A stretch of DNA of 64,000 bases from Chloroflexota bacterium (GTDB lineage Bacteria > Chloroflexota > Anaerolineae > UBA1429), in assembly GCA_012729455.1 (NCBI GenBank), contig JAAYDC010000019.1, positions 62,001 to 126,000 on the forward strand. The letters are read 5' to 3'. A program made the translations under genes and the position numbers. Shown here in pieces: positions 7,569 to 16,010 of the stretch. Position 1 is the first letter of the stretch, and every line of letters starts with the position of its first letter. The notes below the pieces were generated by a model that saw nothing but the letters and a program-made list of their open reading frames with translations, did no database searches and had not been told where the DNA came from.

Positions 7569-7574
7569 AAATAT

Positions 7575-7943
7575 GAGTGGGCCAGGCGTTCGCGGGCTCT
7601 CTGAGCCTGAGGAAAGTCCGAACTCCACAGGGCGCGATGCTGGGTAACACCCAGGCGAGGCAACTCGACGGAAAGTGCAACAGAAAGTCAGTCGCCCGGT
7701 TGAACAAGCCGGGTCAGAGTGAAACGGTGGTGTAAGAGACCACCAGCGGTACTGGTAACAGCACCGGCTCGGCAAACCCCATCGGGAGCAAGATCAAGCA
7801 AGAGGCGCAAGTGGCAACACCTGCCGGGGCTGCCCGTCCCGATGCCTCGGGTAGATCGCATCAGACGGCGAGTAATCGCCGCCGCAGAGAGATGAACGCC
7901 GCCCTGCCAGGCAGGGCACAGAATTCGGCTTATCGGCCCACTC
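7575..7943 (+). ncRNA. rnpB: RNase P RNA (bacterial type A)
   Basis: The catalytic RNA of RNase P, which matures the 5' ends of tRNAs. The universal landmarks are present in order: the P4 5' strand region GAGGAAAGTCCGAACTCCAC (CR I), the AGAGTGAAACGGTGG segment, the GGTGTAAGAGACCACC P9-P10 region, the CR IV-V block ending CAGAATTCGGCTTATCGGCC, and closing P1 pairing of GAGTGGGCC (7575-7583) with GGCCCACTC (7935-7943). The length of about 369 bases fits type A. Minus-strand open frames in this interval are not genes. Confidence 0.97.
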
Positions 7944-7964
7944 TTTGGCAAGAACGGTGTTATC

Positions 7965-11764: not shown

Positions 11765-11825
11765 CCTGTATCATGTGCGTCGCGGCGCACTCTAACCAAT
11801 CTGCAGTTCATTGGAACCGATTGCC

Positions 11826-12527
11826 ATGATTATTAACGATATGGCTTTCCGCATCGGCGGTGAAGCTGGTCAGGGCTTGGAATCGAGCGGTTCAGCTTTT
11901 TCCAAAGCGCTGATCCGTGCCGGTCTGCACGTCGTCGCCGTGCCGGATGCCTACTCGCGCATCCGCGGCGGCCACAACTTTATGACCATCCGTGCCAACC
12001 GCGAACCAGTTTATGCCGCTGCCGAAGGCATCCAAGTATTGATCGCCCTGAATGCCGAAACTATCCAGCGCCATCTGAACACGATGGTGCCCGGATCGGC
12101 GCTGATCTGCGATGCCGGGCTCGAGTTCGACCGCTCGGTCTTGGACGGGCGCGATATCAGGCTGGTGGATGCGCCGCTCCTGGAGATAGCCAGAACCGAG
12201 GGCAACGAGCTGATGATCAACACCGCCAGCGTGGCGGTAGCAGCCGGGCTGACGGGCTTTGATATCAAGTACATCCTGAGCGTCATCTCGGAGGGCTTTG
12301 ACCGCCAAGGTACCGACATCGCGAAGGCGAACTACCACGTGGCTGAAGCTGCCTACAAATGGGCAGCCGAGAACCATCCGGGTTTTGGCTGGCAACTTAA
12401 GGCCATCGAAGGTCCCAAGCGCGTCACCATCAACGCCAACCAGGCATTTGCCATGGGCGCGTTGATGGCGGGCTGCAAGTTTGTTGCGGATTATCCAATG
12501 ACGCCCACCACGCCGGTACTCGAGTAA
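11826..12527 (+). CDS. korA: 2-oxoacid:ferredoxin oxidoreductase gamma-alpha subunit, N-terminal part (interrupted by in-frame TAA)
   Basis: This is the first part of a KorA-type subunit that, with KorB, makes acyl-CoA and CO2 from a 2-oxoacid with reduction of ferredoxin. The gamma domain (FRIGGEAGQGLESSG near the start, then YSRIRGGHNF) is followed by the start of the alpha domain (ANQAFAMGALMAGCKFVADYPMTPTTPVLE). At 12525-12527 a TAA falls where family members have Tyr (E-Y-F). The same frame continues without a break to 13562. A TAC/TAT to TAA change, or a sequence error, is the simplest reason. A start at TTG 11811 is also possible; ATG 11826 is preferred, but no clear ribosome binding site is seen. 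Confidence 0.85.
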   Translation: MIINDMAFRIGGEAGQGLESSGSAFSKALIRAGLHVVAVPDAYSRIRGGHNFMTIRANREPVYAAAEGIQVLIALNAETIQRHLNTMVPGSALICDAGLEFDRSVLDGRDIRLVDAPLLEIARTEGNELMINTASVAVAAGLTGFDIKYILSVISEGFDRQGTDIAKANYHVAEAAYKWAAENHPGFGWQLKAIEGPKRVTINANQAFAMGALMAGCKFVADYPMTPTTPVLE

Positions 12528-12554
12528 TTTGCCGCACACGAAGAAAAATGGGGT

Positions 12555-13562
12555 GTGGTGTTCAAGCAGGCCGAAAGCGAGATCGCGGCCATTAACATGG
12601 TGGTCGGAGCGGCCAACTCGGGCGTGCGTGCCATGACAGCCACCTCGGGCGGCGGGTTTGACCTGATGACCGAAGGTCTTTCGCTGGCAGCCATGTTTGA
12701 AACACCGCTGGTGATCCTGCTGGGGCAGCGCCCCGGCCCGGCTACCGGTCTGCCGACGCGCTCGAACCAGCCTGATCTGAACCTGGCCATGTATGCCGGC
12801 CATGGCGAGTTCACCCGCGTGATTATCTCTCCGCATACCGTGCAAGAGTTTTATCATAGCGCCATCCGGGCATTTAACCTGGCAGATATCCTGCAGTGTC
12901 AGGTGATCGTGATGAGCGACCAACAGATCGCCTCATCGCTGTTTGGCATCGATATGGATGCCTTCCAGATGCAAGACACCTTGATCGACCGCGGCAAGCT
13001 GCTCACAGCCGAACAGGTCGACGCCATGCCCGACTATAAGCGGTACAAGTTGACCGAGGACGGCATCTCACCACGCGCGATCGCCGGCAGCAGCGCCAAT
13101 GCCATCTTCCTGACAACCAGTGACGAGCATGACGAGCGCGGTGCCATCACCGAAGGTGCCGAGATGGCTGCCAGAATGGCCGACAAGCGCCTGGCCAAAG
13201 CCAAGGTAGCCGAGAGCCTGATGCGCCCGCCCTTCTGCTACGGCCCCGAAGAGGCCGATATCACCTTTGTATGCTGGGGCACGACTTTTGGTCCGGTGGT
13301 CGAGAGCGTGAAACAACTCGAGACGCAGGGAACGAGCGCCAACGTGGTCTGCTTTGTGGATATCTGGCCCTTCCTGGTTCAGGCTGCACAGCACGCCCTG
13401 GATGGCGCCAAGCGCCTGGTGGGCGTTGAGCAGAATAAAACGGCGCAGTTCATGCACCTCTTGCGGGCCGAGACGGGCATCGAAATGCAGCAGATCATCA
13501 CGAAATACGACGGCCGCAGGATGACCCCCGAGTACATCCTGGGGATTCTGGAGGTCAAGTAA
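12555..13562 (+). CDS. korA: 2-oxoacid:ferredoxin oxidoreductase gamma-alpha subunit, C-terminal part
   Basis: This is the continuation of the korA frame after the TAA at 12525; coding potential resumes immediately at 12528 (FAAHEEKWG). It carries the alpha-domain pyrimidine-binding region (VGAANSGVRAMTATSGGGFDLM), the LGQRPGPATGLPTRSNQPDL block, and domain III with VCWGTTFGPVVESVKQLE. The internal GTG at 12555 would be the only start if the stop is real, and a separate functional protein from there is unlikely. Read as one gene, KorA would be about 578 residues from ATG 11826, a normal length for a gamma-alpha fusion. Confidence 0.85.
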   Translation: MVFKQAESEIAAINMVVGAANSGVRAMTATSGGGFDLMTEGLSLAAMFETPLVILLGQRPGPATGLPTRSNQPDLNLAMYAGHGEFTRVIISPHTVQEFYHSAIRAFNLADILQCQVIVMSDQQIASSLFGIDMDAFQMQDTLIDRGKLLTAEQVDAMPDYKRYKLTEDGISPRAIAGSSANAIFLTTSDEHDERGAITEGAEMAARMADKRLAKAKVAESLMRPPFCYGPEEADITFVCWGTTFGPVVESVKQLETQGTSANVVCFVDIWPFLVQAAQHALDGAKRLVGVEQNKTAQFMHLLRAETGIEMQQIITKYDGRRMTPEYILGILEVK

Positions 13563-13563
13563 G

Positions 13564-14169
13564 ATGTCGACCGTACAGGATTTCAGTAATGATATTCGAC
13601 CGACCTGGTGCCCCGGCTGCGGTAACTATGGCATCTGGAATGCCATCAAGCGCGCTCTGGTGGCCGCTGAGCTCGAACCGCGCGATGTGATGATGGTTAC
13701 CGGCATCGGCTGCGGCAGCAAGATGCCCAACTATATGCACATTCCTGGTCTGAACGGCCTGTACGGTCGCACCCTGGCTTTGGCTACCGGCTACAAGCTG
13801 GCCAACCACGGTAAAAAGGTCATCACCGTGCACGGCGATGGTGATGGCTACTCGATGGGCGGCAACCACCTCATGCATACCGTACGCCGCAACATCGGCA
13901 TCGTGGATATTATCCAGGATAACCATGTGTATGCCCTCACGCGCGGACAGTACTCGCCTACCAGCCGCTCTGGCTGGGTGACGCGCACCTCGCCGGAAGG
14001 CACCATCGAAAAGCCGCTCAACCCGCTGGCCATGGCGCTCACGCAGGGAGCCACCTTTGTGGCGCGCAGCTTTGGATGTTGCCGGATTGGCGGACCTGAT
14101 CGTCAAGGCGCTCAACCATCGCGGCTATGCGCTGATCGACGTGATGCAGGTGTGTGTTTCGTTCAATAG
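13564..14169 (+). CDS. korB: 2-oxoacid:ferredoxin oxidoreductase beta subunit, N-terminal part (frameshifted)
   Basis: The thiamine-diphosphate-binding beta subunit, starting directly after korA. It has the iron-sulfur/TPP start TWCPGCGNYGIWNA, the ITGIGC-like block (VTGIGCGSKMPNY), the TPP motif GDGDGYSMGGNH and DNHVYALTRGQYSPTS. Homology stops at about 14074 (VARSF); from there the frame gives a nonsense tail ending at 14169. The true continuation is in the +1-shifted frame from about 14075 (GAT GTT GCC). The change is equal to one extra base or five missing bases. Confidence 0.85.
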   Translation: MSTVQDFSNDIRPTWCPGCGNYGIWNAIKRALVAAELEPRDVMMVTGIGCGSKMPNYMHIPGLNGLYGRTLALATGYKLANHGKKVITVHGDGDGYSMGGNHLMHTVRRNIGIVDIIQDNHVYALTRGQYSPTSRSGWVTRTSPEGTIEKPLNPLAMALTQGATFVARSFGCCRIGGPDRQGAQPSRLCADRRDAGVCFVQ

Positions 14170-14437
14170 ATCGATGGGTTACGAGTGGTACCGCGACAAC
14201 ACCTACCAGCTCACGGATACCGGGCACGATTCGAACGACCGCATGGCTGCGATCGAGCGCGCGCTCGAATACCCCGGTGGTGAGGGCAAAATCCCGCTGG
14301 GCATTTTCTACCAAAACAATGATACGCCCAGCTATGAAGAGCAGGTGCCGGTACTGGAAGCCGGCCCCCTGGCGGATCAACCGCTGCGCAAATATCCGAT
14401 CGAAAAATACCGCGAGTTGCTGGACGAGTTATTTTAG
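14057..14437 (+). CDS. korB: 2-oxoacid:ferredoxin oxidoreductase beta subunit, C-terminal part (frameshifted)
   Basis: This holds the remainder of KorB in a shifted frame; the homologous part begins near 14075 (DVAGLADLIVKALNHRG). It contains the conserved LIDVMQVCVSFN region with the cysteine of the third iron-sulfur ligand set, and IPLGIFYQNNDTPSYEEQ before the end. Joined to the upstream piece it gives a subunit of about 290 residues, the usual KorB size. The lesion sits in one gene of a pair whose partner also has a stop, so both may be pseudogenes, or both may be errors of a single-source assembly. Confidence 0.82.
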   Translation: MWRAALDVAGLADLIVKALNHRGYALIDVMQVCVSFNRSMGYEWYRDNTYQLTDTGHDSNDRMAAIERALEYPGGEGKIPLGIFYQNNDTPSYEEQVPVLEAGPLADQPLRKYPIEKYRELLDELF

Positions 14438-14442
14438 GCCTT

Positions 14443-14949
14443 ATGCAAGTCATTGTATATACTACCCGGACTTGACCCTACTGCTATCAGGTGAAAGAGT
14501 TTCTTTCACAACGCGGGGTCGAGTTCAGCGAGCGTAATGTCGCCGAAGACGCGGCTGCAGCTGCCGAGATGGTGCAGATCAGCCAGCAGCGCGGTGTGCC
14601 CGTCACGGTGATCGATGGCCAGGCGGTGGTCGGGTTCGACTGGCCGCGCCTGGAGCGGCTGCTAGCACAGGCTCAGAAGCCGCGCCTCGGAGCCAGCGTG
14701 GCAGACGCCGAACGCGTGCAGGGCGCAGTACCAGGTGTCAGAGGCGCCTATATCGGGCGGGTGCGGGCAGGTGGGTTGGCGGAGCAGGCCGGGCTCCAGA
14801 GCGGCGATGTGATCACCGCCATTGGATCTCACGCAGTGCACAGCGCCGACGAGCTGGCCAGTATTGTGACGCGCATCGCGCCGGGCCAGACGGTGCGCAT
14901 CACATATACACGGTCAGGCAACATATATGAGTCGAGTATTCGGATCTAG
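14443..14949 (+). CDS. Predicted selenoprotein: glutaredoxin-like domain (UPYC) fused to a PDZ domain
   Basis: 168 residues if TGA at 14473-14475 is read as selenocysteine. The N-terminus MQVIVYTTRT is a textbook first strand of a glutaredoxin/NrdH-like fold; next comes TGA-P-Y-C, so Sec11 replaces the first cysteine of the CPYC redox motif. The sequence after the TGA stays fully homologous (YQVKEFLSQRGVEFSERNV, then the cis-proline GVPVTVIDG at 51-59 and VVGFD). Residues about 84-168 are a PDZ domain (YIGRVRAGGLAEQAGLQSGDVITAI). A perfect hairpin lies at 14491-14509. Gene callers would start at GTG 14491 and lose the active site. The ATG is five bases after the korB stop. The UGA as a simple mutation is the alternative, but the motif position and hairpin argue for Sec. 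Confidence 0.88.
14491..14509 (+). promoter_or_regulatory. Predicted bacterial SECIS hairpin in the glutaredoxin-PDZ gene
   Basis: GTGAAAG (14491-14497), loop AGTTT (14498-14502), CTTTCAC (14503-14509): seven perfect pairs with G at loop position 2, followed by U. The loop G is 24 bases after the TGA, inside the 16-37 base window known for bacterial SECIS elements recognised by SelB. Confidence 0.75.
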
Positions 14950-14966: not shown

Positions 14967-15452
14967 ATGTCCGCTACCGATAGCTTACAGATTCTAAGTC
15001 AAGCCGTCAAGCTCGAGACAGAAGGGTTAGCCTTTTACCTCGAGGCCGCCGAAAAGACTGCCGACCCCAAGGCCAAAGCCCTGTTTCTCTCGTTGGCCGA
15101 CGATGAGCGCATGCACAAAGAGGTGATCCTCTCGCAGCTGCATGCCATCGAGGATAACGGCGCCTATGTGCTGCTGCCCGATATCAAGGTCGTGTCGATC
15201 GACCTCGACCAGCCGATCTTCCCCCCTGACTCCTCAGCCGTCGAAGAGGCAATCGGCCAGAACGCCACCGAACAAGACGCGCTGTTTGTTGGCATTGAAA
15301 TGGAGATCAAATCCTACGAGCTCTACCGCAAACAGGCCCAGCAGATCGAGGGCGCCGCTCAGCAGATGTTCCGCTGGCTGGCAAGTGCTGAACTGACGCA
15401 CTATAACCTGCTTATGTCGAGCTGGGAAGCTCTCAACGCACTCGGTGCGTAG
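14967..15452 (+). CDS. Ferritin-like (rubrerythrin-family) protein
   Basis: 161 residues, four-helix ferritin-like fold without a rubredoxin tail. Ligand-type motifs are LETEGLAFYLEAAEKT, DDERMHKEVILSQL, GIEMEIKSYELYRKQA and ASAELTHYNLLMSS. AGGAGG sits about 8 bases before the ATG. It resembles the next gene in length and pattern, suggesting a local duplication. Likely role: di-iron peroxide or oxygen reduction, inferred from neighbouring rubredoxin and flavoprotein genes. Confidence 0.85.
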   Translation: MSATDSLQILSQAVKLETEGLAFYLEAAEKTADPKAKALFLSLADDERMHKEVILSQLHAIEDNGAYVLLPDIKVVSIDLDQPIFPPDSSAVEEAIGQNATEQDALFVGIEMEIKSYELYRKQAQQIEGAAQQMFRWLASAELTHYNLLMSSWEALNALGA

Positions 15453-15479: not shown

Positions 15480-16010
15480 ATGAGCAACAACACGATTCCG
15501 GAAGCCCTCAAAAAGGGCATGACCACCGAGATATGGGGACTGAATTTCTACCGCCAGGCACTGGAGCGCACCAACGACGAAAGCGGTAAAGCGATCTTTG
15601 CCAGCCTGGTGAGCGAAGAAGAAGCCCATCTTGCTTACCTGATCGGCGAATACGCAGCCGTCGCGGGTGATAAGGGCAAGATTATCACCCGTGAAGACGC
15701 CATTGAGCTTGCCAAGAGCGTCCCGCCCACCGAGATCTTTCCGGAGGCCAGCCAGGCCGACCAGTTGATCGCCAAGAATGCAACCGACTTGCAGGTGCTG
15801 GAAATGGCGATGCAGTTCGAGCTCAAGGGCTTCAAGTTCTACGAGGTCGAGGCCGCCATAGCCGACACACCGGAAGCAAAATCGGTTTGGACCTTTTTAG
15901 CCGCCGCCGAGGACCGTCACTATACTTTTCTGCAAAAAACGCACGAATTCCTGGCCACTAAAGGCACCTGGTATTTCGACAATGAGGAAAAGCCCTTCTT
16001 TGAGGGCTGA
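15480..16010 (+). CDS. Ferritin-like (rubrerythrin-family) protein
   Basis: 176 residues. A second ferritin-like protein directly after the one at 14967, with the same motif order: MTTEIWGLNFYRQALERT, SEEEAHLAYLIGEYA, EMAMQFELKGFKFYEVEA and AAEDRHYTFLQKTHEF. AAAGGGGAG precedes the ATG. No encapsulin-targeting tail is seen (it ends NEEKPFFEG). Last gene of the operon, closed by the terminator at 16025-16057. Confidence 0.85.
   Translation: MSNNTIPEALKKGMTTEIWGLNFYRQALERTNDESGKAIFASLVSEEEAHLAYLIGEYAAVAGDKGKIITREDAIELAKSVPPTEIFPEASQADQLIAKNATDLQVLEMAMQFELKGFKFYEVEAAIADTPEAKSVWTFLAAAEDRHYTFLQKTHEFLATKGTWYFDNEEKPFFEG

Follow-up and report, generated by a model that had tools for sequence, protein, structure and literature searches.

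The grx-pdz locus

The DNA analysed here (the window) is a stretch of 64,000 nt from the genome of a Chloroflexota bacterium. It contains a gene, here called grx-pdz, whose reading frame has one internal apparent stop, a UGA at codon 11, before its terminal TAG. Two korAB-like genes precede it and two genes of the rubrerythrin family follow it. The features of the locus are as follows.

11811..13562, + strand: korA-like gene, 2-oxoacid:ferredoxin oxidoreductase alpha subunit; with an interrupting TAA at 12525-12527
13564..14437, + strand: korB-like subunit gene; with a frameshift near 14068; its end lies 5 bp upstream of the ATG of grx-pdz
14443..14949, + strand: predicted Sec-glutaredoxin-PDZ gene (grx-pdz); 168 aa, ATG start at 14443, TAG stop at 14947-14949
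14443..14673, + strand: glutaredoxin domain, residues 1-77; cGrx1 (7c10) is the nearest solved structure
14473..14475, + strand: UGA codon, predicted to be read as selenocysteine (codon and residue 11, UPYC); UGA or Cys codon in 63/63 aligned orthologues
14482..14484, + strand: TGC, putative resolving Cys14 of UPYC; invariant in the alignment
14491..14509, + strand: bacterial SECIS-like hairpin GUGAAAG-AGUUU-CUUUCAC; 7 perfect pairs, loop AGUUU at 14498-14502
14677..14946, + strand: HtrA-type PDZ domain, residues 79-168; profile and fold match
14967..15452, + strand: rubrerythrin-family (ferritin-like) gene 1
15480..16010, + strand: rubrerythrin-family gene 2; ends in TGA used as an ordinary stop

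An earlier note on this DNA had described korB upstream and two ferritin-like genes downstream; this arrangement was borne out, and both downstream genes belong to the rubrerythrin family. The breaks in korA and korB are not noted there. Elsewhere in the window, an RNase P RNA of bacterial class A lies at 7574-7948 on the + strand (Rfam RF00010, 288 bits).

Domain structure of the product

The product begins with MQVIVYTTRT-U-PYC. In a Pfam profile search, run with the UGA translated as Cys, residues 3-61 matched Glutaredoxin (PF00462; E 2e-18, 66.7 bits versus a gathering score of 22.9) and residues 80-165 matched PDZ_2 (PF13180; E 8e-13, 48.9 bits versus a gathering score of 27). The AlphaFold model, built from a 63-row alignment (mean pLDDT 93.9, pTM 0.64), has two well-defined domains, whose placement relative to each other is less certain. 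When this model was compared with solved structures, residues 1-75 matched cGrx1 (7c10; Z 14.5, rmsd 0.9), and residues 79-168 matched PDZ domains of the HtrA type, among them that of DegQ (Z 15.2, rmsd 1.5 A). By profile and fold, the product is a glutaredoxin and PDZ protein, and the fusion of a UPYC glutaredoxin to a PDZ domain that the earlier note had recognised is confirmed by the frame, the Pfam profiles and the predicted fold. Since the glutaredoxin domain starts at residue 1, there is no room for an N-terminal signal peptide. Across the alignment, the redox positions Sec11/Cys and Cys14 are invariant, and so is G83, a putative carboxylate-binding glycine of the PDZ domain.

Gene neighbourhood and the role of the PDZ domain

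The gene order korA-korB-grx-pdz-rubrerythrin(-rubrerythrin-DUF554) is recurrent in Anaerolineae, where KorB is usually encoded just upstream of grx-pdz. A rubrerythrin-family gene is found nearby in 20 Anaerolineae loci, with 17 such genes at the next position; these counts are upper limits, because some genomes were entered twice (e.g. L049/L191). Seen from the other side, grx-pdz lies within about 1.5 kb of 18 of the 30 rubrerythrin-1 homologues in loci sampled across the class. No common neighbour was seen outside Anaerolineae, the f20 and g63 genomes included, and since the neighbours are not conserved there, the link to korAB and rubrerythrin may be lineage-specific. The ferredoxin and peroxide-defence context suggested by the earlier note is thus supported for Anaerolineae, with their recurrent korAB and rubrerythrin neighbours, but not for the other lineages.

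A client protein would be recognised by the HtrA-type PDZ domain, through either its C-terminal peptide or an exposed one, and could in this way be kept beside the selenolate of the glutaredoxin domain. HtrA-type PDZ domains also regulate oligomers and bind unfolded peptides. The protein might accordingly be a selenoprotein whose PDZ domain serves as a structural or oligomerisation module, or as a sensor of unfolded proteins, instead of a client adaptor; the fold match to HtrA-type domains agrees with such a role, and a ligand search among the C-termini of neighbour proteins yielded no common motif restricted to grx-pdz loci. However, the two domains remain fused, by a short linker, across the phylum, and the L82-G83 pair of the putative carboxylate-binding loop is conserved, with G83 itself unchanged in every aligned sequence. 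We therefore consider a structural or sensory PDZ domain unlikely and favour the client adaptor.

The rubrerythrin-1 proteins encoded beside grx-pdz often end in -GWV, -WA or -PF. A conserved hydrophobic C-terminus of rubrerythrin-1 was considered as a PDZ ligand and found to be unsupported: tails with W are not confined to loci in which grx-pdz was found, and their last residue varies (WAD, WAS, WQ).

Distribution of the fusion and of selenocysteine

The same fusion, with UGA or a Cys codon at exactly codon 11, is present within the 15 genomes of the same family, as the UGA form in G000, G001, G005, G006, G009, G011 and G014 and as the Cys form in G003, G004, G010, G012 and G013. Of 400 genomes from the phylum, about 40 contain the full fusion at E below 1e-40. 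When 84,980 species genomes were scanned with two peptide patterns, one of them requiring Cys, 26 full-length fusions were obtained among the best 80 of 192 loci, all of them from Chloroflexota or Thermomicrobiales; the other 54 of these best 80 matched in the glutaredoxin part, with no PDZ continuation. Among the genomes scanned by the two patterns, the fusion therefore appears to be restricted to Chloroflexota/Thermomicrobiota. No relatives of grx-pdz were found in viral contigs. The g63 genomes that have grx-pdz carry 2-36 reductive dehalogenases, consistent with Dehalogenimonas, a genus reported to have selCDAB (PMC13390414, PMC4918011).

The orthologue set comprises 37 distinct UGA sequences and 27 Cys sequences; one of the latter (L157) is without PDZ, leaving 26 Cys fusions. 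Among the 63 aligned orthologues, Cys and Sec are exchanged at exactly one column (37 UGA, 26 Cys), and additional loci contain seven more UGA genes, two of them with UGYC. Both checks proposed in the earlier note, for Cys/Sec exchange at residue 11 in orthologues and for glutaredoxin-PDZ fusions across genomes, had a positive outcome: every aligned orthologue has UGA or a Cys codon at this place, and the fusion recurs in dozens of genomes. Some other matches were rejected as recoded codons: the 'TGA' matches of L031-L033 are ordinary gene ends, and the stops of L034 are located beyond its glutaredoxin part.

In the genome G302, a Sec Grx-PDZ gene (L156, contig C2) and the Cys glutaredoxin L157 (contig C3) belong to the same family; the frame of L157 ends in TAG before the PDZ, and the search match had extended past this stop. 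In addition, the divergent Grx-PDZ relatives L164-L170 (e.g. L164) have GDPxC or GDPxS replacing C/UPxC, with Asp as the first redox residue. They are apparently a redox-dead branch that keeps the PDZ domain, some members being without a redox Cys.

A maximum-likelihood tree of the 63 proteins was constructed with the Sec column omitted. The Sec/Cys label changes 10 times on this tree (bootstrap range 9-11; mean of shuffled labels 20), at least six of the changes being forced by well-supported branches, in an unrooted count from which the direction of each change cannot be read. Such repeated swaps at one position in relatives argue that the apparent stop is real recoding and not an error. The closest relative of the window protein is the Cys form L044/L019 (60% identity), and the window protein and L044 form a supported pair on the tree (96/86).

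The hairpin downstream of the UGA

The seven-pair hairpin with loop AGUUU reported in the earlier note is present, and the distance of 24 bases given there is only roughly right: the stem starts 15 nt, and the loop 22 nt, downstream of the UGA. The site has a hairpin shortly 3' of the UGA with a G in the apical loop, as required of a bacterial SECIS. When the coding sequence was recoded synonymously with the peptide preserved, 160 of 20,000 recodings (0.8%) had 7/7 pairs at the same site and 1,330 of 20,000 (6.7%) had any perfect 7-bp stem in the SECIS range, so that the hairpin judged from the window sequence by itself is suggestive. Because an Rfam search gave no SECIS family match at the locus, the hairpin was assessed by comparison across orthologues.

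At least six of the seven pairs are formed in 37/37 UGA orthologues versus 2/27 Cys orthologues (Fisher p = 9e-16, uncorrected for relatedness), in a count that allowed the loop to have five bases or, as in one subgroup, the four bases AGUU. The main register is shared by 30 UGA sequences; in these, 97.1% of cells are paired, the stem shows compensatory changes from U-A to C-G in nine sequences and from A-U to G-C in two, and loop positions G27 and U28 of the hairpin alignment are invariant. Neither the pairing score nor the covariation score was equalled in any shuffle, and the pairing was lost when the register was slid. Unlike the window hairpin taken alone, the comparative evidence for the hairpin is beyond chance. 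Another stem, GCGAAGG-AGUU-CCUUCGC, occurs in L154, L155 and L158-L162, with the register shifted by one base and the AGUU loop kept.

In the Cys form L044/L019, where codon 11 is TGT, a relic of the hairpin remains, GUGAAAG-AUUUU-CUUUCCC, in which the loop G is gone. For L044, a change from Sec to Cys is argued on the basis of this relic. The window hairpin, unlike that of this nearest Cys relative, retains 7/7 pairs and the loop G.

These comparisons bear on the idea that the UGA is a nonsense mutation or a sequencing error in an ordinary Cys glutaredoxin-PDZ gene. Local errors or decay do exist next to grx-pdz: compared with the intact KorA of L044 and KorB of L047, the korA frame of the window is cut short by a TAA and that of korB is shifted, either as assembly errors or as decay of the oxidoreductase in the source genome, and the nearest relative of the window protein has Cys. 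However, no fewer than 37 distinct sequences, drawn from many genomes, have UGA at this codon, every one with the hairpin; the window has kept the pairs and the loop G that its Cys relative has lost, and the frame 3' of the UGA is intact and conserved. By comparison across orthologues, mutation or error is already refuted as a general explanation, and we regard it as very improbable for the window.

Selenocysteine machinery in the source genome

The source genome (2.64 Mb, 99% complete) has the full set of SelA, SelB, SelC and SelD: SelA scored 568.7 bits versus a cut-off of 267.9, SelB and SelD are present, and so is a tRNA-Sec with UCA anticodon. A thioredoxin reductase (TrxR) is encoded as well. 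Among the genomes of the family, SelB was found in 15/15 and a tRNA-Sec above 60 bits in 12/15, genomes with the Cys form included, so that correlating the machinery with the Sec/Cys state was uninformative. The SelD gene of the source genome (L196:1531, G000 contig C9) is a second selenoprotein gene: its reading frame contains a UGA, within GAG-U-GSK, and a GC-rich hairpin comes after it. SelD is a known selenoprotein; its in-frame UGA therefore serves as an internal positive control.

That UGA is read as Cys or Trp through an altered genetic code, as the Cys at the same column in orthologues might suggest, is hardly credible, since UGA (16008-16010) is the ordinary stop of a neighbouring gene, the genome has tRNA-Sec with anticodon UCA together with the full Sec machinery, and the hairpin accompanies UGA and not Cys codons. 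By every computational criterion tested, the grx-pdz product is a selenoprotein. The selenocysteine-glutaredoxin reading of the earlier note is thereby supported from four sides, by the Sec/Cys orthologues, the hairpin tied to UGA, the complete machinery and the recurrent fusion.

Relation to known proteins

The closest solved structure, 7c10 (cGrx1), is the selenoprotein glutaredoxin of Clostridium (Alkaliphilus) oremlandii OhILAs. Like grx-pdz, it has the glutaredoxin fold with Sec first in a UxxC motif, and it shares about 52% identity over 73 residues with the glutaredoxin domain of the window protein (phmmer E 7e-19). Unlike grx-pdz with its C-terminal PDZ, cGrx1 consists of the glutaredoxin domain alone, about 84 residues long; the grx-pdz family, in contrast, belongs to Chloroflexota and has different neighbours. 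The Trx7/PDZ (seleno)protein NF041199 also joins a thioredoxin-fold domain and a PDZ domain within one selenoprotein, but its domain is Thioredoxin_7 with CxxU (Sec last) in about 390 residues, whereas grx-pdz has UxxC in 168 residues; the window protein scored 27.6 bits against this model (cut-off 300), in the PDZ part only, and is not a member. Domains resembling Grx also occur in Uxx-star (NF041212, NF041114) and YruB-like (TIGR02196) proteins, and in the Uxx-star proteins the position of Sec agrees with that in grx-pdz, but these models are short (70-74 positions) and without PDZ. The window protein falls below the cut-offs of GlrX_YruB TIGR02196 (82.1 bits versus 88.55) and Uxx_star NF041212 (63.6 bits versus 66). 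Residues 79-168 share their fold with the PDZ domains of HtrA/DegP/DegQ; in grx-pdz, however, there is no protease domain and the PDZ is fused to a glutaredoxin.

Two selenoproteome reviews, one of them PMC13188914, include Sec Grx (UxxC) and Trx7/PDZ (CxxU), and PMC13188914 cites a Sec glutaredoxin (Kim et al. 2011) and structures of the C. oremlandii glutaredoxin (its refs 85 and 109). The Sec glutaredoxin-PDZ family is absent from NCBIfam 20.0 and from these reviews; with respect to Haft and Tolstoy 2025, novelty was judged from the review's table of its families and from NCBIfam. In the open-licence literature, we found no description of a selenoprotein glutaredoxin-PDZ, or of one in Chloroflexi/Anaerolineae. 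Both Sec glutaredoxins and PDZ domains are well known by themselves; what appears to be new is their union in one protein. The UGA members have probably been annotated as truncated or missing genes, their UGA being taken for a stop.

Proposed function and implications

We propose that SelB and tRNA-Sec insert Sec at the 14473 UGA under the direction of the hairpin at 14491-14509, and that the product is a cytosolic two-domain thiol-disulfide oxidoreductase. As in the glutaredoxin family, Sec11 would attack a disulfide, selenenic or sulfenic bond of the client, and the selenylsulfide would be resolved by Cys14. The oxidised UPYC pair would most likely be re-reduced by the thioredoxin reductase that the genome encodes. 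In Anaerolineae, the gene order suggests that the enzyme is likely to protect or re-reduce the oxygen-sensitive, ferredoxin-dependent KorAB and the peroxide-handling rubrerythrins. Comparison supports the predicted Sec decoding, the UxxC pair and the two folds. Taken as a whole, it is probable that grx-pdz encodes a genuine selenoprotein, a PDZ-steered Sec thiol-disulfide oxidoreductase which in Anaerolineae is set in the protection of KorAB and rubrerythrins. More tentatively, and with somewhat less than even confidence, the family may be a phylum-wide group of substrate-guided selenoenzymes that combine a Sec reductase with PDZ recognition, forming in Anaerolineae a repair unit with KorAB and rubrerythrins.

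Through its many Sec/Cys switches, and with a hairpin that Sec forms keep and that has decayed in Cys forms, the family is a compact natural experiment on the retention versus loss of selenium, and the members in seemingly Dehalogenimonas genomes offer cultured material for study. Should the PDZ domain indeed direct the selenolate to chosen proteins, grx-pdz would be an example of targeted, not general, thiol repair.
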